Below are positions 51,841 through 61,419 of a DNA stretch of 64,000 bases, in pieces. The stretch is from assembly GCF_002979515.1 (NCBI RefSeq), contig NZ_PCPA01000005.1, positions 124,001 to 188,000 on the forward strand, given 5' to 3'. A program made the translations under genes and the position numbers. A model generated the notes under the pieces. That model did not search any database and was not told the DNA's origin. It saw nothing but the letters and a program-made list of their open reading frames with translations. Positions within the stretch are counted from its first letter, which is position 1. The number at the start of each line of letters is the position of its first letter. The DNA comes from Microbacterium sp. MYb54 (GTDB lineage: Bacteria; Actinomycetota; Actinomycetes; Actinomycetales; Microbacteriaceae).

Positions 51841-52404
51841 ATGCCCAAGCCCACTAAGGGTCCCCGCCTCGGAGGCGGCCCCGCACACGAGCGCCTCATG
51901 CTTGCAAACCTTGCAGCGGCGCTCTACACCCACAAGTCGATCAAGACGACCGAGACCAAGGCCAAGCGCCTTCGTCCGCTCGCTGAGCGTCTGATCACCT
52001 TCGCCAAGCGTGGCGACCTGCACGCGCGCCGTCGCGTGCTCGCCGTCATCGGCGACAAGAGCGTCGTTCACACGCTCTTCGCCGAGATCGCACCGCTGGT
52101 CGCTGACCGTGAGGGTGGCTACACCCGCATCACGAAGGTCGGCAACCGCAAGGGCGACAACGCGCCCATGGCCGTGATCGAGCTCGTTCTCGAGCCCGTC
52201 ACGCCGAAGAAGAAGGCTGCCGCGAAGGCTGCTCCGAAGGCTGAGAAGGCCGCCAAGGCGGAGAAGCCCGCCGAGGTCGTCGAGGAGGCTCCCGTCGAGG
52301 AGGCTCCCGTCGAGGACGCCGCCGACGCCGGTGCCGAGTCGCAGGCCGAGGGCGAAGCAGCCGAGGCTGCCGCCGAGGACGCTGTCGAGAAGAAGTCCGA
52401 GTAA
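51841..52404 (+). CDS. rplQ: 50S ribosomal protein L17 with acidic C-terminal tail
   Basis: 187 residues; the L17 core ([20 protein letters not shown] through [20 protein letters not shown]) fills the first ~120. The rest is a low-complexity Ala/Lys and then Glu/Ala tail with an [13 protein letters not shown] repeat. The tail is likely flexible on the ribosome surface near the exit. Last gene of the alpha operon. Confidence 0.98.
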
Positions 52405-52483: not shown

Positions 52484-54058
52484 TCAGCGGGCGCGCAGGT
52501 CTTTGCGGAGGATCTTCCCCGAGCTCGACTTCGGGATCACCTCGATGAACTCCACCTGCCGCACCTTCTCATGCGGTGCGACGTGCGAGGCGACGTGAGC
52601 CATCACGACATCGGCATCGAGGTCGGCTCCGGGCTGCCGCACCACGAAGGCCTTCGGCACCTCCTGGCCGTCTTCATCGAACGCACCGATCACGGCGGCA
52701 TCCGCGATGGCCGGGTGCTCGAGCAGCACCGCCTCCAGCACGGCAGGGGCGACCTGATACCCCTTGTACTTGATGAGCTCCTTGAGTCGATCGACGATCC
52801 GATAGATCCCGTCATGGGTCACGGTCGCGACGTCGCCGGTGTGCAGCCAGCCGTCGGCATCGAGCATCTCGGCTGTGGCATCCGGGCGGTTGAGGTATCC
52901 GACCATCACCTGCGGCCCGCGCACCCACAACTCACCAGGCTCGCTGGCACCATCGGTCGGGACGGCGACATCTTCACCCGAGTCGGGGTCGACGAGTCGT
53001 GCCTCGGTGTTCGGAACGAGCGGCCCGATGCTCGAGCGGTCGATGTCGTTGCGAGTCTCGGAGATCAGGTTCACGGCAGGACTCGTCTCGGTCATGCCGT
53101 AACCCTGCGTGACGATGCAGCCGAGCCGGTTCGCGACGGCTGAGGCCAGAGCGCCGTCGAGAGGGGCGGCACCCGAGAAGATCACCTTCACCGCGGAGAG
53201 GTCGTACTGATCGATGATCGGATGCTTCGCGAGTGCGACCGCGATCGGCGGCGCGACGAACACCCAGGTGGTGCGGTGCTCGGCGATGATGCGCAGGAAC
53301 TCGGGGAGGTCGAACTTCGGCATCGTGACGAGCCCCGCCCGCTGGCGCAGAGCGAAGTTCAGAAGCACGGTCATGCCGTAGATGTGGAAGAAGGGCAGCA
53401 CGGCCAGCACGCGGTCGCTCGCGTCGACGCCGAGGACCGGGCGGCACTGCGACACGTTGGCCACGAGGTTCCGATGCGTGAGCATGACCCCCTTCGGGCG
53501 TCCGGTGGTTCCCGAGGAGTAGGGCAGGACGGCGAGATGGGTGGCTGGATCGAACGAGACCTCGGGGGCCGGATGTCCCTCGCCGAGGAGTGCCGGAAGC
53601 GAGGGGTGTCCTTCCGCGCCGTCGAGCACGATGACGTGATCGGCGGCGAATCCGAGCTTCTCAGCGGCCGCCTGCGCCCCGGGGAGGAGAGGTGACACGG
53701 TGACGAGCCAGGTCGCGCCGGCATCGGTGAGCTGGTTCGCTATCTCGTCTGCGGTGTAGAGGGAGTTGATGGTGGTCGCCGTGGCCCCTGCCCGGAGAAT
53801 CCCGTGGAACACGGTGGCGAACGCGGGGATGTTCGGGCACAGCACGCCGACCGTCGTTCCGACGCCGACCCCGCGAGCAGCGAGGGCTCCGGCGAACAGA
53901 TCGATCTGTCCGACCAGCTGTCGGTAGGTCGTGGTCGCCCCGCTCATCCCGTCGACGAGGGCGATCGTGTCGAGCTCGGCTTCGCCGAGTCCTCCGAAGA
54001 GGAATTCGTGGATGGAGACCTCGGGGATCTCCACATCGGGATAGGTGCTGCGAACCAT
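52484..54058 (-). CDS. AMP-dependent acyl-CoA ligase (4-coumarate-CoA ligase-like)
   Basis: 524-residue adenylating enzyme. The phosphate-binding loop is LPYSSGTTGRPKGVMLTHRN (about 175-194). QGYGMTETSP, then DGWLHTGDVATVTHDGIYRI, and KELIKYKGYQVAPAVLEAVL (A8/hinge) follow, with the catalytic Lys in SSGKILRKDLR at the end. The layout suits 4CL-like or medium-chain acyl ligases; the acid substrate is unknown. A GAAGGAGA site precedes the ATG. It follows the fused regulator gene on the same strand with its own promoter. Confidence 0.9.
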   Translation of the reverse strand: MVRSTYPDVEIPEVSIHEFLFGGLGEAELDTIALVDGMSGATTTYRQLVGQIDLFAGALAARGVGVGTTVGVLCPNIPAFATVFHGILRAGATATTINSLYTADEIANQLTDAGATWLVTVSPLLPGAQAAAEKLGFAADHVIVLDGAEGHPSLPALLGEGHPAPEVSFDPATHLAVLPYSSGTTGRPKGVMLTHRNLVANVSQCRPVLGVDASDRVLAVLPFFHIYGMTVLLNFALRQRAGLVTMPKFDLPEFLRIIAEHRTTWVFVAPPIAVALAKHPIIDQYDLSAVKVIFSGAAPLDGALASAVANRLGCIVTQGYGMTETSPAVNLISETRNDIDRSSIGPLVPNTEARLVDPDSGEDVAVPTDGASEPGELWVRGPQVMVGYLNRPDATAEMLDADGWLHTGDVATVTHDGIYRIVDRLKELIKYKGYQVAPAVLEAVLLEHPAIADAAVIGAFDEDGQEVPKAFVVRQPGADLDADVVMAHVASHVAPHEKVRQVEFIEVIPKSSSGKILRKDLRAR

Positions 54059-54151: not shown

Positions 54152-55372
54152 TCAGACGGCATCTCTGATGCGGTAGCGGGTGCTCGGTCGGCCTTTGGTC
54201 GAGTAGTCGAGCGCGCGCGTCGCTCGTCCGGACCCGGCGAGGTGTTCGAGGTAGCGGCGCGCGCTGACCCGAGAGATGTCGAGGTCATCTCCGATCTCGC
54301 TCGCCGAGGCGTCGGAGCGGGCGGCGAGTGCCGTGGAGACTCGGCCGAGTGTCTCGGCGCTGAGCCCCTTGGGCAGCCCGAGGCGCTGGCGGAACGCGAT
54401 GATGGCATCCGCTGCCTCGACACGTCGGACCACGTCGTGGAGCTCGGTGTGATCGCGAAGCAGCAGTGTCGCGCCGATACCGCCGCCGTCGGCATCGCTG
54501 CCGGTGCTGCGGGCGACGAGCACGTGCGACCCGACGATCACCGGTCGCCCGGCCGACTCGCCTTCGCGGAGCACGGTCGCCAACTCTTCGCCCAGCACCT
54601 CCGCGGCAGGTTCGCCGTCGAGATCGGCGGCGTCCCTGTCGAGGAAACGTGCGGCGGCATCGTTCACGAGTGTGATCCGCCCGGTGCCGTCGACGGTGAT
54701 CACCCCTTCGCTGAGACCGTGCAGCGTCGTCTCCTGGTTCTTCACGAGCGCCGCGATCTGATGGGGCTCGAGTCGATAGATCCGGCGGCGGATGATCGAG
54801 GTCACCCAGGCGGATCCGAACACCCCGAGCACGGCCGCGGCGAGCATCGCCGAGATCAGCCAGACGAGGTTCGCGCTGAACTCCTCACTGAGCTCCGACT
54901 CGAGGATGCCGACCGACGCTGTGCCGATCACATCGCCGTCGTCGTCGCGGATGGGCACCTTGACCCGCCAGGACGTACCGAGCGTGCCGGTCTGGGTGCC
55001 GACGTAGATCTCGCCGGAGAGCGGGATCGACGGGTCGGTGGAGACCTTCTCTCCGATGCGAGCCGGGTTCGGATGCGAATAGCGGATGCCGTCTTCGTTG
55101 GCCACGACGACATAGGCGAGATCGGAGGCCTCCCGGATGACCTCCGCGATGGGCTGGATCGTGATCGACGGCTCGGCATCGTCGAAGGCCGAGTGCACGA
55201 CGGGCAGGGCGGCGATCGATTGGGCCACAGCCTGCATCCGGTCCTTGTAGGCCTCGCGGAGCGCTTGCTCCTGGAATGCTCCGGCGAGGATGCCGGTCGC
55301 GAGGGTCACCAGGAACACGATCAGCGCCTGCAGCACGAGCAACTGCACGCGCAGCGTCATCTTTGAGGCCAC
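54152..55372 (-). CDS. membrane-bound one-component regulator: CitA/DcuS-like sensor fused to CitB/DpiA-like HTH
   Basis: 402 residues from ATG 55360 (GTG 55372 possible). A helix at about 5-28 and another at about 164-190 flank an extracellular CitA/DcuS-type sensor domain, with IRYSHPNPARIGEKVSTDPS near 92-111 and VGTQTGTLGTSWRVKVPI near 120-137. A cytoplasmic PAS domain follows (about 198-305, GLSEGVITVDGTGRITLVND). It then runs straight into LPKGLSAETLGRVSTALAAR and DISRVSARRYLEHLAGSGRA, the DNA-binding tail of CitB-type response regulators. No H-box, no ATPase boxes and no receiver aspartate exist. It diverges from tctCBA, its likely target; the ligand is probably a di/tricarboxylate. 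Confidence 0.85.
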   Translation of the reverse strand: MASKMTLRVQLLVLQALIVFLVTLATGILAGAFQEQALREAYKDRMQAVAQSIAALPVVHSAFDDAEPSITIQPIAEVIREASDLAYVVVANEDGIRYSHPNPARIGEKVSTDPSIPLSGEIYVGTQTGTLGTSWRVKVPIRDDDGDVIGTASVGILESELSEEFSANLVWLISAMLAAAVLGVFGSAWVTSIIRRRIYRLEPHQIAALVKNQETTLHGLSEGVITVDGTGRITLVNDAAARFLDRDAADLDGEPAAEVLGEELATVLREGESAGRPVIVGSHVLVARSTGSDADGGGIGATLLLRDHTELHDVVRRVEAADAIIAFRQRLGLPKGLSAETLGRVSTALAARSDASASEIGDDLDISRVSARRYLEHLAGSGRATRALDYSTKGRPSTRYRIRDAV

Positions 55373-55427: not shown

Positions 55428-55466
55428 CGACCAATAGTTCCGAAACTCCGACCAATGGTTTCCGAA
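55428..55466. promoter_or_regulatory. paired direct repeats between the fused regulator and tctC (probable operators)
   Basis: CGACCAATAGTTCCGAA (55428-55444) and CGACCAATGGTTTCCGAA (55449-55466) are direct repeats starting 21 bases apart, two DNA turns, so both face the same side. They lie midway in the divergent region, the expected place for binding by the HTH of the adjacent regulator. Confidence 0.7.
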
Positions 55467-55537
55467 GGTTGAGCGCAGAAGCCGGAGCTTCCACTGTGGA
55501 TCCACACAGCATCACGAACGCTCAAGGAGGAGCGCAC

Positions 55538-56557
55538 ATGAAGAATGCACGCATCGGAACCCTGGTCGCATTGGCGGCTGCGGCCGCACTCACACTGACG
55601 TCGTGTGCCGGAGGCAGCGCAGCGACCGACGAAGGCGACGCTCAGGAGGAGACCGCCAAGATCACCGACGTCTCGATCGTCGTGCCCGCTGATCCCGGTG
55701 GGGGCTGGGACCAGACCGGGCGCGCCCTGTCGCAGGTGCTCACCGAGGACGACATCGTGAGGTCCGCCCCGGTGACGAACGTGGGAGGCGCCGGCGGCAC
55801 CGTCGGTCTCGCACAGCTCGCCAATGAGAAGGACCCGAACACGCTCATGGTGATGGGGCTCGTCATGGTCGGGGCGGTCGAGACGAACGCCTCGGCCGTG
55901 CGGATCGAGGACACCACCCCGATCGCGCGCCTCACCGACGAGCCGCTCGTGGTGGTCGTGCCGGCCGACTCGAAGTACGACACCCTCGAAGACCTCGTGG
56001 AGGACATCGTCGACAACGGCCAGTCGGTCACGATCACGGGTGGTTCGGCGGGAGGCGCCGACCACATCCTCGCCGGGCTCATGCTCGAAGAGGCGGGTCT
56101 GGATGGGGCCGAGATCGCCGAGAAGCTGAACTACACCCCGAACTCCGGCGGCGGCGAGGCCGTGCCGCTGCTCATCGGGGGCAAGGTCGCCGCCGGCATC
56201 TCCGGTGTCGGAGAGTTCGCGCAGCACATCGAGAGCGGCGCGCTCAAGGCACTGGCGGTGTCGAGCGAGGAGCCCGTCTCACAGCTCCCCGACGTGCCGA
56301 CCATCACCGAAGAGGGCTACGACGTCGTCCTCACCAACTGGCGCGGCGTGATCGCGCCCGGCGACATCTCCGACGGCGAGAAAGACGAACTGGTGCGGGT
56401 GATCACCGAGCTGCACGAGTCCGAGGCGTGGACCGAGCAGCTGGAGACCAAGGGCTGGACCGACGCGTTCCTCGTCGGGGCGGAGTTCGACGAATTCCTC
56501 ACCGGCAACATCGAAGAGGTCACGGCGACGCTGAAGAACATCGGTCTGGTGCAGTGA
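55538..56557 (+). CDS. tctC: tripartite tricarboxylate transporter substrate-binding lipoprotein TctC
   Basis: 339 residues from ATG 55538 behind AAGGAGG. A lipobox LTSC (Cys near 22) anchors it. The mature protein follows the TctC/BugT pattern: [38 protein letters not shown], and [18 protein letters not shown] near residue 168. It captures a carboxylate (citrate or similar) for the TctAB permease. First gene of tctC-tctB-tctA. Confidence 0.93.
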
Positions 56558-56558
56558 C

Positions 56559-57128
56559 ATGACGGTCCCCGCATCATCGGGGACCGAGGAGCAGGGGGTG
56601 CGGGTCGACCACGACGGTCGGCCCGCACGCCGCTCTCCCTCCGTCCCCATCGGCGAGCTCGTGTTCGCCGGCATCATGGTCGTGCTCGGCGTCTTCGCCG
56701 TCGTCGGCATCTTCCTGATCCATGTCCCCGTCGGCATGAAAGCGGGTCCCACGGTCTTCCCGATCTTCGTCTCGGTCATCCTTCTCGCCTCCGCGGTCGC
56801 TGTGCTGATCGGTGTGCTGCGCGGTGAGCGCGGCGGAGCGGAGGAGGCGGAGGACATCGATGAGAGCCTCCCGACCGACTGGGTCACCCTGGCCAAGCTC
56901 GCAGGGCTGGTCGTCGCGCACCTGCTCCTGATCGAGCCCCTCGGCTGGGCGCCCGCCGCCGCGCTGCTGTTCGGCGGGGTCGCATGGTCGCTCGCCGCCA
57001 AGCGCTGGTGGATGGCGTTCCTGATCGGCATCGTGGTCGCTCTCGTGATCCAGGTCGTCTTCGGCGGTCTGCTCGGCCTGTCGCTGCCCTGGGGCCCTGC
57101 CCTCGGCTGGCTCGGAAGGATGTTCTGA
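56559..57128 (+). CDS. tctB: tripartite tricarboxylate transporter small permease TctB
   Basis: 189 residues with four membrane helices, as usual for the small subunit: [40 protein letters not shown], a third over [17 protein letters not shown] and a fourth near the end. Between helices 2 and 3 an acidic loop ([17 protein letters not shown]) is exposed. It starts 1 base after tctC and overlaps tctA. Confidence 0.9.
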
Positions 57129-58675
57129 TGGACAGCTGGACCCTGTTGATGGAGGGCTTCGCGACGGCGCTGCAGCCGCAGTACCTCGCGTTCGCCTTCC
57201 TCGGCGTCTTCGTCGGCACCGCGGTCGGTGTGCTGCCGGGCATCGGGCCCGCCATGACGGTGGCGCTGCTTCTTCCCCTCACCTACACGCTCGACCCTGC
57301 AGCCGCGCTCATCACCTTCGCCGGCATCTACTACGGCGGCATGTACGGCGGCTCGACGACGAGCATCCTGCTCAACACCCCGGGAGAGTCGGCCTCCATA
57401 GTCACGGCGATCGAGGGGAACAAGATGGCGAAGATCGGGCGCGGTGCTGCCGCGCTCGCCACCGCCGCCATCGGCTCGTTCGTGGCCGGCACGCTGGCGA
57501 CACTGGGCCTGACGCTGTTGGCTCCGCTGCTCGCGCAGTTCGCGGTCAACCTCGGGCCCGCCGACTACGTGGCCCTCATCGTCATCGCGTTCATCACGGT
57601 CGGCGCGCTGATCGGCAGCTCGATCTCGCGAGGGATGCTCTCGCTCGGCGTCGGCCTGTTCCTCGGGCTCGTGGGCACCGACTGGCTGTCGGGGCAGCAG
57701 CGCTACACGCTGGGGCTCCCCGCGCTCTCGGATGGCGTGGACATCGTCCTGGTCGCGGTCGGGCTCTTCGCGGTAGGAGAGACCTTCTACATCGCCGCCC
57801 GGCTGCGGCACGGCGCCGCGGACGTCATCCCCGTCACCCGTGGATGGCGCTCGTGGATGACGAAGTCGGACTGGCGGAGGTCGTGGAAGCCCTGGCTGCG
57901 AGGAACCGCGATCGGCTTCCCGATCGGCACGATCCCCGCCGGCGGCGCTGACGTCGCGACCTTCCTGTCGTATGCGACCGAGCGCAAGCTCTCGAAGCAC
58001 CGCGGCGAGTTCGGACACGGTGCGATCGAGGGTGTGGCAGGCCCGGAATCGGCGAACAACGCGGCGGCCGCCGGCGTGCTGGTGCCGTTGCTCACGCTCG
58101 GACTGCCGACGACCGCGACCGCGGCGATCATCCTCACGGCGTTCCAGTCGTACGGCATCCAGCCGGGACCGCTGCTGTTCGAGAGCCAGTCGAACCTGGT
58201 GTGGGCGCTGATCGCGAGCCTCTACATCGGCAACGTCATCCTGATCGTGCTGAACCTGCCGCTCGTGGGCATGTGGGTGAAGCTGCTGCAGATCCCGCGG
58301 CCGTACCTCTACGCCGGCATCCTGCTGTTCGCGGTCTTCGGCGCTTATGCGCTGCACGGTTCGCCGTCTGACATCGTGATCCTGCTGATCGTCGGCATCC
58401 TCGGCTACTTCATGCGGAGGTACGGCTATCCGGTGGCGCCGCTCGTGGTCGGGATGATCCTCGGGCCGATGGCGGAGGAGCAGCTGCGCAAGGCGCTACA
58501 GCTGAGTCAGGGAGATCTGAGCACGCTGGTCATGCAGCCCTTCGCAGCGATCGCGTACGGGGTGCTCGCACTCCTGATCGTCGGCGGACTGTGGCTGCGC
58601 CGGCGGCAGCGTCGGTACGAGCAGGCATTGACCGAGTCGATCGCGGTGCCGATCAAGGCCGACTCGGAGGTCTGA
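57128..58675 (+). CDS. tctA: tripartite tricarboxylate transporter large permease TctA
   Basis: 515 residues with 11-12 helices. Family signatures: [60 protein letters not shown], and [20 protein letters not shown] near residue 300. The proton- or sodium-coupled uptake of tricarboxylates is known for the family. The ATG overlaps the tctB stop by 1 base. Confidence 0.95.
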
Positions 58676-58712: not shown

Positions 58713-59510
58713 GTGAGTGACGTACAGGCCCCGGCAAGAGGGCCTCGTGCCTACACGGCGTTCATCGGGATCGGCCTTCTCGCCGGCCTCCTCTCCGGCC
58801 TCTTCGGCGTCGGCGGCGGCACGGTCATCGTCCCGCTGCTGGTGCTCCTGCTCCACTTCGATCAGCGCCTCGCCGCCGGGACCTCGCTCGCGGCGATCGT
58901 GCCCACGGCCAGCGTGGGCGTCATCTCCTACGCCACGACCGGGTCGGTGGCCTGGATCCCGGCGATCATCCTCGCGGCCGGCGCCGTCGTGGGTGCGCAG
59001 ATCGGCACGCGCCTGTTGCCTCGCATCTCGCAGACGGCCCTGCGCTGGGGCTTCGTCGGCTTCCTGGTGGTCGTGATCATCAGCCTCTTCCTGGTGATCC
59101 CCTCGCGCGACGCCGCGTTCGAACTCTCCTGGCTCACCGGCATCGCGCTCGTCGGGGTCGGCGTCGGCACCGGGATCCTCGCCGGTCTCATCGGCGTCGG
59201 CGGCGGAGTCATCGTCGTCCCCGTGCTGATGCTGGCCTTCGGCACGAGCGATCTGGTCGCCAAGGGCACGTCGCTCCTCATGATGATCCCGACGGCGATC
59301 TCCGGCACGGTGGGCAACCTCCGCAACCGCAACGTCGATCTTCTCGCTGCCGCGCTGATCGGAGTCTCGGCCTGCACGACGACAGCTCTCGGGGCGTGGC
59401 TGGCGACGATCGTCGATCCGACGCTGGGCAACATGCTGTTCGCGGCATACCTCGTCGTGATCGCCGTGCAGATGGCGATCAAGGCGGTCAGAGGACGCAA
59501 GCGCAGCTGA
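58713..59510 (+). CDS. TauE/SafE-family permease
   Basis: 265 residues with eight helices arranged as two repeats, each with the GxGGG turn: LFGVGGGTVIVPLLVLLL near 24-41 and LIGVGGGVIVVPVLMLAF near 153. Family members export sulfite/sulfonates or organic acids. The GTG start lies 6 bases after a TAGGCT box, so it is probably leaderless. Downstream hairpin at 59517-59544. The link to carboxylate transport is only by location. Confidence 0.9.
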   Translation: MSDVQAPARGPRAYTAFIGIGLLAGLLSGLFGVGGGTVIVPLLVLLLHFDQRLAAGTSLAAIVPTASVGVISYATTGSVAWIPAIILAAGAVVGAQIGTRLLPRISQTALRWGFVGFLVVVIISLFLVIPSRDAAFELSWLTGIALVGVGVGTGILAGLIGVGGGVIVVPVLMLAFGTSDLVAKGTSLLMMIPTAISGTVGNLRNRNVDLLAAALIGVSACTTTALGAWLATIVDPTLGNMLFAAYLVVIAVQMAIKAVRGRKRS

Positions 59511-59582: not shown

Positions 59583-59867
59583 ATGACCACCCCACGACGC
59601 CTCCTCATCACCGGCGCGCTGATCGCGATCCCCGTCGCCTTCGCGATCGGGAGCGTCGTGCTGGCGCAGATGCCTCCCTCACCACAGATCCCCACCGAAC
59701 CCGTATCGGTGCAACTCGCCCCGCCGGCGCCGACCGAGGAACCAGCCCCCGCACCGGCTCCCGTGGTTCCGGTTCCCGCTCCAGCGCCCGCACCGCCCCC
59801 TGCCCCGGCGCCCGCGCCTGCACCACCTGCCGGTGACGACGACGATGACGGCGGCGACGATGACTGA
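59583..59867 (+). CDS. short exported/anchored Pro-Ala-rich protein upstream of the sensor kinase
   Basis: 94 residues from ATG 59583. A membrane helix (RLLITGALIAIPVAFAIGSV) is followed by about 50 residues of Pro/Ala repeats with valines and a terminal Asp/Gly run (DDDDDGGDDD). Such a tail would extend into the cell wall and could bind cations. Its end overlaps the kinase start, implying joint translation. It may be an accessory of the sensor, but that is inference. Confidence 0.65.
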   Translation: MTTPRRLLITGALIAIPVAFAIGSVVLAQMPPSPQIPTEPVSVQLAPPAPTEEPAPAPAPVVPVPAPAPAPPPAPAPAPAPPAGDDDDDGGDDD

Positions 59868-61419
59868 CGCACCCACCCTGCCCCTCGACCTCGGCGAGGC
59901 CGCTCCGGCACGCCCCGAGACGCGCGCGGTGCCGCAGGGCTCCGCCCCCGCCGGTGCGCCGCTTCGCACGCTGCGTCGCCGCACGCTGCCCGCCCGCTGG
60001 CGCATCACACTGTGGATCATCCTGAGCACGGCGATCACGCTTCTCGCCGTCGGGATGATCGGCCGCAGCATCTTCCTCGCCGGCGTCGAGCAGTCGGCCA
60101 ACGCCGAGATCGAGCAGGAGGCCGCAGAGTTCTCCCGGTTCGCGGAGGATGCAGCCGCCAGCGGTCACACCACGGCCGAGGAGCTGGTCGCCGAGTATGT
60201 CGCCCGGCAGTCCGTGCATGAGAACGAGGTCGTCGTGGCCGCGGTCGAGGGCATGGTCATCGCGGTCGCGAACGGCCGCGTGGAGGCGACCGATGCGTCC
60301 ACACTGTCGGCTGTTCCGGGAGGCGAGTCGCTGGTGACCCGACTGCTCGGCGAATCCGTGGCATCCGGTGCGATGGACTCGCCCGAAGCCGGACCCCTGC
60401 GCTGGGGGCGGCTGGACTTCACCACGGGCGACCGCGACGGGGCCGTCCTCATCGTGCAGTACACGCAGGAGGCCAGAGCGCAGGTCGACGCAGGTTTCGC
60501 CACCATCGCGTGGGTCGCCCTGATCGGGATCGTGCTCAGCTCCGGCGTCGCGTGGCTGGTGGCCGGACAGATCCTCGCACCGGTGCGAGAGGTCTACCGC
60601 GTGGCCCGCGACATCGGCGAGCATGACCTCTCCGCCAGGGTCCCGGTCGAGGGGACCGACGACATCGCCGCCGTGGCGACGACCTTCAACCAGATGCTCG
60701 ACCGCCTCGAGGCCGTGCACGCCACGCAGCAACGGTTCGTCGACGACGCGGGGCATGAGCTGCGTACCCCGATCACGATCGTTCGCGGGCAACTGGAACT
60801 GCTCAGCGAAGACCCCGAGGAGCGCGCGGCGACCCTGCGGCTGGTGAGCGACGAGCTCGACCGGATGAGCCGCATCGTCACCGACCTGCTCGTGCTGGCG
60901 CGGGCCGAGCAGCCCGACTTCGTGCGGGTCGCGAACTGCGACATCGCCGCCCTCACCCTCGACATCGAAGCCAAGGCCCAGAACCTCGGTGATCGTCGCT
61001 GGCAGCTCATGGAGGTGGCGGAAGGGACCGCGGCGCTGGACCCTCAGCGGGTCACCCAAGCCGTGCTCCAGCTCGCAGCCAACGCGGTACAGGTCACCGA
61101 GACGGGCGACCGCATCCTCATCGGATCGCGCTTCGACGGCGACGGCGAGGAACGGCGCCTGCGGCTGTGGGTGCGCGACTCCGGTCCAGGCGTCGCGGCT
61201 GCCGATGCCGAGCGCATCTTCGAGCGCTTCGCCCGTGGCGACAGCTCCGGCGTGCGCCGCGGGTCGGGGCTCGGGCTCGCGATCGTGCGGGCGATCACCG
61301 ACGGGCACGGCGGTTCAGCCTGGGTCGACAGTGTGCTCGGCGACGGCGCCACATTCGGCATCGACCTCCCGGCACCCGCCACAACGCGGTTCGACGCCGC
61401 GGCAGAGAGGAGCGAGTGA
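59860..61419 (+). CDS. sensor histidine kinase (HAMP, HisKA, HATPase)
   Basis: 519 residues from ATG 59860 (GTG 59833 also possible). Two helices (about 47-75 and 213-237) flank an extracellular sensor of ~135 residues. Then come a HAMP linker, the H-box DDAGHELRTPITIVRGQLEL (phospho-His299), N-box QLAANAVQVT, G1 VRDSGPGVAA, and G2 RGSGLGLAIVRAI. It pairs with the response regulator 1 base downstream. The signal is unknown; downstream transport genes suggest a carboxylate or glycerate-related cue. Confidence 0.94.
   Translation: MTDAPTLPLDLGEAAPARPETRAVPQGSAPAGAPLRTLRRRTLPARWRITLWIILSTAITLLAVGMIGRSIFLAGVEQSANAEIEQEAAEFSRFAEDAAASGHTTAEELVAEYVARQSVHENEVVVAAVEGMVIAVANGRVEATDASTLSAVPGGESLVTRLLGESVASGAMDSPEAGPLRWGRLDFTTGDRDGAVLIVQYTQEARAQVDAGFATIAWVALIGIVLSSGVAWLVAGQILAPVREVYRVARDIGEHDLSARVPVEGTDDIAAVATTFNQMLDRLEAVHATQQRFVDDAGHELRTPITIVRGQLELLSEDPEERAATLRLVSDELDRMSRIVTDLLVLARAEQPDFVRVANCDIAALTLDIEAKAQNLGDRRWQLMEVAEGTAALDPQRVTQAVLQLAANAVQVTETGDRILIGSRFDGDGEERRLRLWVRDSGPGVAAADAERIFERFARGDSSGVRRGSGLGLAIVRAITDGHGGSAWVDSVLGDGATFGIDLPAPATTRFDAAAERSE

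Follow-up and report, generated by a model that had tools for sequence, protein, structure and literature searches.

Corynebacterium glutamicum CitA-CitB is a two-component system that controls tctCBA and citH. According to a 2012 review, CitAB is required for the citrate induction of tctCBA and CitB binds to the tctCBA promoter, with the CitB motif unidentified as of that review (PMC3353115). For the sensing step, a structural study of Geobacillus CitA describes how citrate forms a helix before TM2 and pulls TM2 in a piston-like manner, while the PAS dimer changes from an antiparallel to a parallel arrangement that brings the PAS C-termini to about 11 Å; the R93A mutant was used for the citrate-free state (PMC11754779). 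The study leaves open how the change in the PAS dimer acts on the next module (PMC11754779).

Membrane-bound one-component regulators are already known, and the ToxR type has an N-terminal HTH, one transmembrane helix, and a C-terminal periplasmic sensor, which is the opposite order to that reported here (PMC5936718). A census based on UniProt 2012_06 counted a transcription-factor output in 3 of 2,499 sCache_3_2 proteins (PMC4822843, section 7). Their domain pairing is alike in outline to that of the protein analyzed here, although the census table names neither the proteins nor a mechanism (PMC4822843). The hybrid two-component systems of Bacteroides also combine a membrane sensor and a DNA-binding domain in one chain; they keep the kinase and receiver (PMC11253607), neither of which is present in the regulator described below.

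Here, we analyzed a window of DNA, namely the whole stretch of 64,000 nucleotides from Microbacterium sp. MYb54, in which one gene encodes a CitA-type sensor fused to a CitB-type DNA-binding domain. The fused regulator shares the CitA-type Cache-TM-PAS arrangement, the CitB-type HTH, and the tctCBA target (predicted in the case of the fused regulator) with C. glutamicum CitA-CitB, but it is one protein and possesses neither a His kinase core nor a receiver. DcuS/DcuR and the CitA proteins of Klebsiella and Geobacillus have homologous Cache and PAS domains, whereas the output of the fused protein is the HTH of the former partner. As in ToxR and CadC, the sensor is outside, the winged HTH is inside, phosphorylation is absent, and the DNA would be reached from the membrane; in contrast to the ToxR type, the fused regulator has two transmembrane helices, a PAS relay, and a C-terminal CitB-type HTH. 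The comparison with CadC and ToxR drawn in an earlier note on this DNA is thus apt for the possible working mode but not for membership in that group, given the C-terminal HTH and the PAS domain in between. In the engineered EMeRALD receptors, a single chain likewise links a sensing domain across the membrane with a DNA-binding domain. These receptors are man-made (PMC8410942), whereas the fused regulator is natural and conserved. Among the matches listed in a search of the open-licence PMC literature, limited to titles and the starts of abstracts, neither the fused protein nor a natural two- to one-component conversion of CitAB is described, a negative result that carries little weight.

The common view, reportedly that of Ulrich, Koonin and Zhulin in 2005, is that two-component systems derived from one-component ones. 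One-component systems are called evolutionarily more ancient in PMC5936718. The locus presented here represents the reverse step, from two components to one. Relatives still show both states along with the junction and the operator, which provides a rare chance to observe the shrinkage of a two-protein sensing system to a single membrane protein.

Domain architecture of the fused regulator

The 402-aa protein is encoded by a single open frame at positions 54152-55360 on the minus strand. The earlier note had claimed a frame of 54152-55372; its continuity holds, but position 55372 corresponds to an upstream GTG and the ATG lies at 55360. Residue numbers refer to the 402-aa protein (the P0001 numbering runs four higher). 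The gene and its parts are as follows.

54152-55360, minus strand: fused CitA-CitB one-component regulator, 402 aa (ATG at 55360, stop at 54152; full-length in 54 of 366 genus genomes)
55274-55342, minus strand: TM1, about residues 7-29 (hydropathy; helix 3-50 in the structure model)
54872-55270, minus strand: extracytoplasmic sCache_3_2 (CitA/DcuS) sensor, residues 31-163 (Pfam, alignment, and fold match)
54791-54871, minus strand: TM2, about residues 164-190 (hydropathy; low dN/dS for 167-205)
54440-54730, minus strand: cytoplasmic PAS domain, residues 211-307, ending in DHTEL (Pfam and alignment)
54377-54439, minus strand: junction segment, residues 308-328, HDVVRRVEAADAIIAFRQRLG (spacing of 21 residues shared by all 54 fused and all 42 intact proteins)
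54167-54376, minus strand: CitB/DcuR-type winged HTH arm, residues 329-398, with SRVSARRYLEHLA (profiles, identity to CitB arms, and model)

Pfam assigned sCache_3_2 to residues 31-163 with an E-value of 1.3e-34 and PAS families to residues 211-307, and the hydropathy profile brackets the Cache domain with two hydrophobic segments, yielding the domain order TM-Cache-TM-PAS-HTH. The protein thus displays both the CitA/DcuS trait, a Cache domain between two transmembrane segments followed by a cytoplasmic PAS domain, and the CitB/DcuR trait, a C-terminal CitB-type winged HTH. The C-terminal match of the window protein to Pfam HTH_11 is weak (E = 0.003, under the curated cut-off), and 29 of 40 fused members matched HTH_64, the 'DpiA-like' family of Pfam. 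The match to the NCBIfam DcuS/MalK kinase model is confined to positions 3-324 of 529 (E = 9.9e-55); of the DcuR regulator model, nothing but the DNA-binding part, positions 151-227 of 239, is matched (E = 1.3e-9). The matches to other NCBIfam kinase models (AtoS, WalK, etc.) are confined to the sensor or PAS stretch. Pfam and NCBIfam therefore agree with the original reading of one frame in which a CitA/DcuS-like sensor and PAS domain are joined to a CitB/DpiA-type HTH.

This reading also held that the H-box, ATPase boxes, and receiver Asp are missing. Pfam detected no HisKA, HATPase, or Response_reg domain in the window protein at E ≤ 1 or in any of 40 fused members at E ≤ 0.01, and a motif search found the H-box, N-box, G1-box, and receiver motifs kept in 0 of the 54 fused proteins. 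The domain-database search that had been proposed as a check revealed no hidden kinase or receiver, and the sensor-HTH fusion lacking both modules is confirmed as a real observation. It meets the layout of a membrane-integrated one-component system in the broad sense, which comprises a sensor, a transmembrane segment, and a DNA-binding domain without a phosphotransfer domain. The candidate explanation of a hidden kinase or receiver was rejected, as the Pfam, NCBIfam, and motif searches found none.

Distribution in Microbacterium and beyond

A survey of 366 genomes of the genus (E ≤ 1e-60) yielded 98 matching genomes with one match each. These comprise 54 full-length fusions with 71-100% identity to the window protein, two broken fused copies, and 42 intact CitA proteins, whose matches are confined to residues 1 to about 320. 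The listing of genomes with an equal architecture, which the first analysis had suggested, thus gives 54 of 366 in the genus. A scan of named genome contigs located 34 loci, 29 of which are named Microbacterium, including M. maritypicum, oxydans, algeriense, hydrocarbonoxydans, arabinogalactanolyticum, azadirachtae, and others. In two Agromyces loci from the same scan, the sensor match and a CitB-type HTH lie in different frames, with the HTH about 2 kb farther along. Outside the genus, sampling of 398 genomes from the family, 396 from the order, and 396 from the phylum (E cut-offs of 1e-60, 1e-40, and 1e-25) yielded no full-length fusion, the matches ending at residue 371 at the latest. In a smaller survey of 58 genomes (E ≤ 1e-10), the outside-genus matches that include the sensor end at residue 359 at the latest. 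The family, order, and phylum samples were drawn from larger groups, and about four top candidates were scored in each genome. Fusions that are rare or more distant may have escaped this sampling.

The idea that an intact citA-citB pair suffered a local deletion during assembly or sequencing would be compatible with the intact pairs present in related species genomes, but its probability is negligible, since the same junction occurs in 54 of 366 genus genomes, at identities down to 71% and in many separate named assemblies. The 54 conserved full-length copies contradict it, and with it the sequencing deletion that had been named as a refutation. The other named refutation, intact citA and citB in close relatives, is met only in part: such pairs exist, but in genomes of different species, and conservation extends to the fused form as well. 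As judged from the sequences alone, the fusion is an old event kept in 54 species genomes and not a local deletion.

The two broken copies differ in form. In G287 (L082, 2501-3696), the regulator is split over two frames meeting near residue 116, which reflects either a recent break or a sequencing error. In G160 (L083, 2504-3127), the first 189 residues are missing and the remainder abuts a partial tctA match, while tctC and tctB gave no match at this copy. Because the truncated regulator adjoins the partial tctA and tctC and tctB are unmatched, half of the regulator and the transporter were probably lost together in this small genome (2.5 Mb).

Origin from a two-component pair

All 42 intact loci encode a CitA with the H-box, followed by a CitB with the receiver Asp and Lys motifs. 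The N-box pattern is present in 35 and the G1-box pattern in 38 of the 42 intact CitA proteins. Some CitB starts are wrong, with frames running far upstream, and only the presence of motifs and the C-terminal arms were used. In a tree of the sensor part, the 54 fused rows occupy one side of a branch with an SH-aLRT value of 100; this tree included 16 outgroup rows from 18 loci, as one locus had no suitable hit and one was too short. A second sensor-part tree, containing 29 of the 54 fused rows, the 42 intact rows of the genus, other genera, and paralogs, was rooted on distant paralogs and recovered the fused branch with 100/100 support and in 100% of 200 bootstrap trees. The sister of this branch consists of three intact rows of other Microbacteriaceae (99/97), two of which show zero distance and probably represent one genome, and additional intact pairs branch outside the group formed by the fused and sister rows. 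Since the fused branch is nested inside intact pairs, the direction of change is from two proteins to one. A single origin fits this topology, so that the fusion apparently arose once. Sequence comparison assigns the sensor, both transmembrane segments, and the PAS domain to a CitA ancestor and the winged HTH to CitB; the HTH arm of the fused proteins has a median identity of 60.3% to the sister CitB arms.

Junction register and purifying selection

The distance from the end of DHTEL to the HTH arm (L-PKGL) is exactly 21 residues in all 54 fused proteins, and the distance from the end of DHTEL to the phospho-accepting His is likewise exactly 21 residues in all 42 intact CitA proteins. Because the two spacings are equal, the HTH arm begins where the phospho-accepting His stood. 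The sequence of the 21-residue junction has diverged from that of CitA and is nearly invariant among the fused proteins. Owing to this divergence from the CitA helix, the dimer geometry at the junction may differ from that of CitA.

The median dN/dS values, obtained from 120 random pairs at 84-97% identity (116 pairs for residues 308-327), are 0.112 for the whole protein, 0.115 for TM1 and the Cache domain, 0.036 for TM2 (residues 167-205), 0.154 for the PAS domain, 0.039 for residues 308-327, and 0.097 for the HTH arm. These values are rough because dS is about 0.7. Purifying selection is evident in every part, including the HTH and the joint. Among the five parts, constraint is strongest in TM2 and the joint, a pattern that would be expected from a signal passing mechanically along them. 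The selection pattern bears on the idea that the protein is merely what remains of a degraded citAB locus, as a relic or in a dominant-negative form, without a regulatory function. Two of 56 fused copies are indeed broken (two frames in G287, and the first 189 residues missing in G160), but all parts are under purifying selection, 54 copies are full-length, and the operator described below is retained and doubled. In addition, at the truncated G160 copy, tctC and tctB are unmatched and tctA is only partial. We consider a relic very unlikely.

Predicted structure and sensor pocket

The AlphaFold2 model of the full-length protein, calculated as a monomer only from a 40-row alignment, has a mean pLDDT of 78.4 and a pTM of 0.41. 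The Cache domain and winged HTH are confident and the PAS domain is fair, while the joint is poorly defined, with mean pLDDT values of 49 for residues 311-320 and 57 for residues 321-330. Given the low confidence at the joint and the pTM of 0.41, a rigid coupling between the PAS domain and the HTH is unproven. A comparison of the full-length model with the PDB returned mainly sensor and PAS matches among the matches listed (the best 50). Since this search was dominated by such matches, the HTH arm was modeled separately, from 13 rows, and adopted a winged HTH fold with a mean pLDDT of 83.5. Its PDB matches are mostly winged-HTH regulators but weak, with a best E-value of 1.8e-3 and none at E ≤ 0.001.

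Among the matches listed, the closest solved fold for the sensor is citrate-bound CitA from Geobacillus thermodenitrificans (8bgb), with 40% identity over about 125 columns. R93, H96, R132, and K134 are invariant in the 40 aligned members of the 54 fused proteins, and R93, H96, and the R-x-K motif of the fused proteins line up with Geobacillus CitA. Citrate is the most likely ligand, as inferred from the relatives and the conservation of the pocket.

The segments 207-216 and 308-314 show pLDDT values under 50 and may be flexible. This raises the alternative that the same fusion acts by proteolysis, in which ligand-triggered cleavage near TM2 or in the PAS-HTH linker would release a soluble fragment that activates tctCBA. 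Regulated proteolysis of membrane regulators is known (PMC7593790). However, a linker that only needs to be cleavable would not be expected to show the near-invariance of residues 308-327 (dN/dS 0.039), and we regard this alternative as quite improbable.

The tct locus and the predicted operator

The regulator gene and the transporter genes are separated by an intergenic region that contains the predicted control elements.

55538-56557, plus strand: tctC, tripartite tricarboxylate transporter binding protein (predicted target)
56559-57128, plus strand: tctB
57128-58675, plus strand: tctA
55429-55444, plus strand: operator repeat 1 (predicted), GACCAATAGTTCCGAA
55450-55466, plus strand: operator repeat 2 (predicted), GACCAATGGTTTCCGAA, 21 bp from repeat 1
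55469-55497, plus strand: predicted tctC promoter, TTGAGC at 55469-55474, 17 bp, and CACTGT at 55492-55497 (read by eye)
52484-54058 and 51841-52404: acyl-CoA-ligase-like gene and rplQ beside the fused tct cassette

The gene was previously stated to face tctCBA, and tctC is divergent from the regulator in all 54 fused loci as well as in 35 of the 42 intact loci. The stretch 55428-55466, which the earlier note had named as the operator, contains a direct repeat with a 21-bp period, and GACCAATAGTTnCnGAA - GACCAATGGTTTCCGAA, or a sequence close to it, is present between the genes in the fused loci. Of the 54 fused loci, 53 contain the motif CCAATRSTT, as do all 20 sister intact loci and all 10 intact loci in other genera of the family; none of the 22 more distant intact loci of the genus has it. 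Its presence in the fused and sister loci and its absence from the distant intact loci indicate that the operator belongs to the CitB branch that donated the HTH. The operator is thus inferred to be inherited from the intact sister systems, and its function is predicted.

The second full site accompanies the fusion. A pair of CCAAT sequences with a spacing of 20 or 21 bp is present in 48 of the 54 fused loci and in none of the 42 intact loci, whereas the strict operator pattern is met twice in 40 of the 54. Among the six fused loci without the CCAAT pair, four have one base changed in copy 1 with the spacing kept, one (L066) has one base changed in each copy with the spacing kept, and one (L070) has a single copy. 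In the 20 sister intact loci, the second copy is a shorter TTAGTT-like box located 19-20 bp on. The 4.25-Mb host genome contains CCAATRSTT at 10 places, and only before tctC do two of them lie within 21 bp. The longer version of repeat 2 occurs once in this genome; because repeat 1 differs, CCAATRSTTYCNGAA finds only repeat 2. The fused system thus has a candidate repeat, whereas the CitB motif is given as unidentified in the 2012 C. glutamicum review (PMC3353115). The repeat provides a candidate operator motif for CitB-type regulators of Microbacteriaceae.

The -10 column [CT]AnnGT is conserved in the intergenic alignment. By eye, the repeats are inferred to center near -67 and -46 from the predicted start. 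These positions precede the -35 and -10 elements, an arrangement seen with activators, and argue against a repressor that would leave the operator upon ligand binding. The homologous CitAB of C. glutamicum also activates tctCBA (PMC3353115). Nothing in the sequence fixes the sign of regulation, and without a phosphorylation step a one-component regulator could work as easily by release; we regard repression by the same fusion as unlikely but retain it as an alternative to activation.

Concerning the chromosomal context, rplQ or its neighbor, the acyl-CoA-ligase-like gene, adjoins 52 of the 54 fused loci but none of the 42 intact ones. The flanks were unequal (1.5 kb for 30 fused loci and 2.5 kb for 24; a median of about 1.2 kb beyond citB for the intact loci, with a minimum of 67 bases), and this contrast is therefore only suggestive. 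In its fused form, the tct cassette seems to occupy one chromosomal site.

Proposed mechanism

The phylogeny, junction register, synteny, and shared operator agree with the earlier proposal that a citA-citB pair lost everything between the PAS domain and the HTH. The collapse interpretation is supported overall, while the ligand, the binding of DNA by a membrane-anchored protein, and an influence on tct expression are inferences. We consider it likely that the protein is a membrane-anchored one-component regulator formed by an internal CitA-CitB collapse, in which a carboxylate, probably citrate, moves the TM2/PAS dimer so that two HTHs bind the repeats and activate tctCBA; in this proposal, the ligand, the sign of regulation, and the tethered binding are inferred. 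Specifically, an external tri- or dicarboxylate, most likely citrate, would bind to the Cache domain and pull TM2, and the PAS dimer would rearrange in the way reported for CitA. Through the short junction segment, this change would be relayed straight to the two HTH domains. These would bind the direct repeats, which are spaced at 20-21 bp and immediately precede the tctC -35 element, and thereby activate tctCBA. The SRVSARRYLEHL helix of the fused regulator and the Cache pocket residues R93 and R132 are placed on this putative signal path. Since the PAS C-termini carry HTHs instead of kinase helices, the PAS movement could position the HTHs on same-face sites. Activation by citrate is the best guess, because C. 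glutamicum CitAB is needed for the citrate induction of tctCBA. A one-operon divergent regulon fits a membrane-bound protein, which would mainly search nearby DNA.

A more specific version, which we favor with less assurance, is that the winged HTH took the exact place of the phospho-accepting His in its own kinase. The PAS-dimer switch would then directly set the spacing of the two DNA-binding domains, and the operator would have changed from one full and one partial site to two full sites 20-21 bp apart. If the proposed mechanism is true, the movement of the CitA sensor, transmembrane segments, and PAS domain alone suffices to control a transcription factor, and the question of how PAS acts on the next module becomes testable with a transcription readout. 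The fused regulator would also offer a design for a compact transmembrane carboxylate sensor.

Other CitAB loci and neighboring genes

In the 22 distant intact loci (L097, L104-L123, and L125), the CitB arms have a median identity of 51.5% to the fused arm, and tctC is divergent in 15 of them. The absence of CCAATRSTT together with the less similar CitB arms suggests a second CitAB lineage with another operator in the genus. The host genome contains two further CitAB-like loci, L128 and L129 (G000, contig C1), whose sensor parts are 25-35% identical to the window sensor; tctC gave no match beside either of them. Because of these two loci, cross-talk in the host cannot be excluded.

A frame at 58713-59510, directly 3' of tctA, encodes what we take to be a TauE/SafE-like permease. 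This frame also matches in L126 and L131-L134, five other fused loci with longer flanks, and beside the broken copy L083. Slightly downstream, a frame at 59833-61419 on the plus strand resembles a sensor histidine kinase, an assignment based only on a reading of the sequence.
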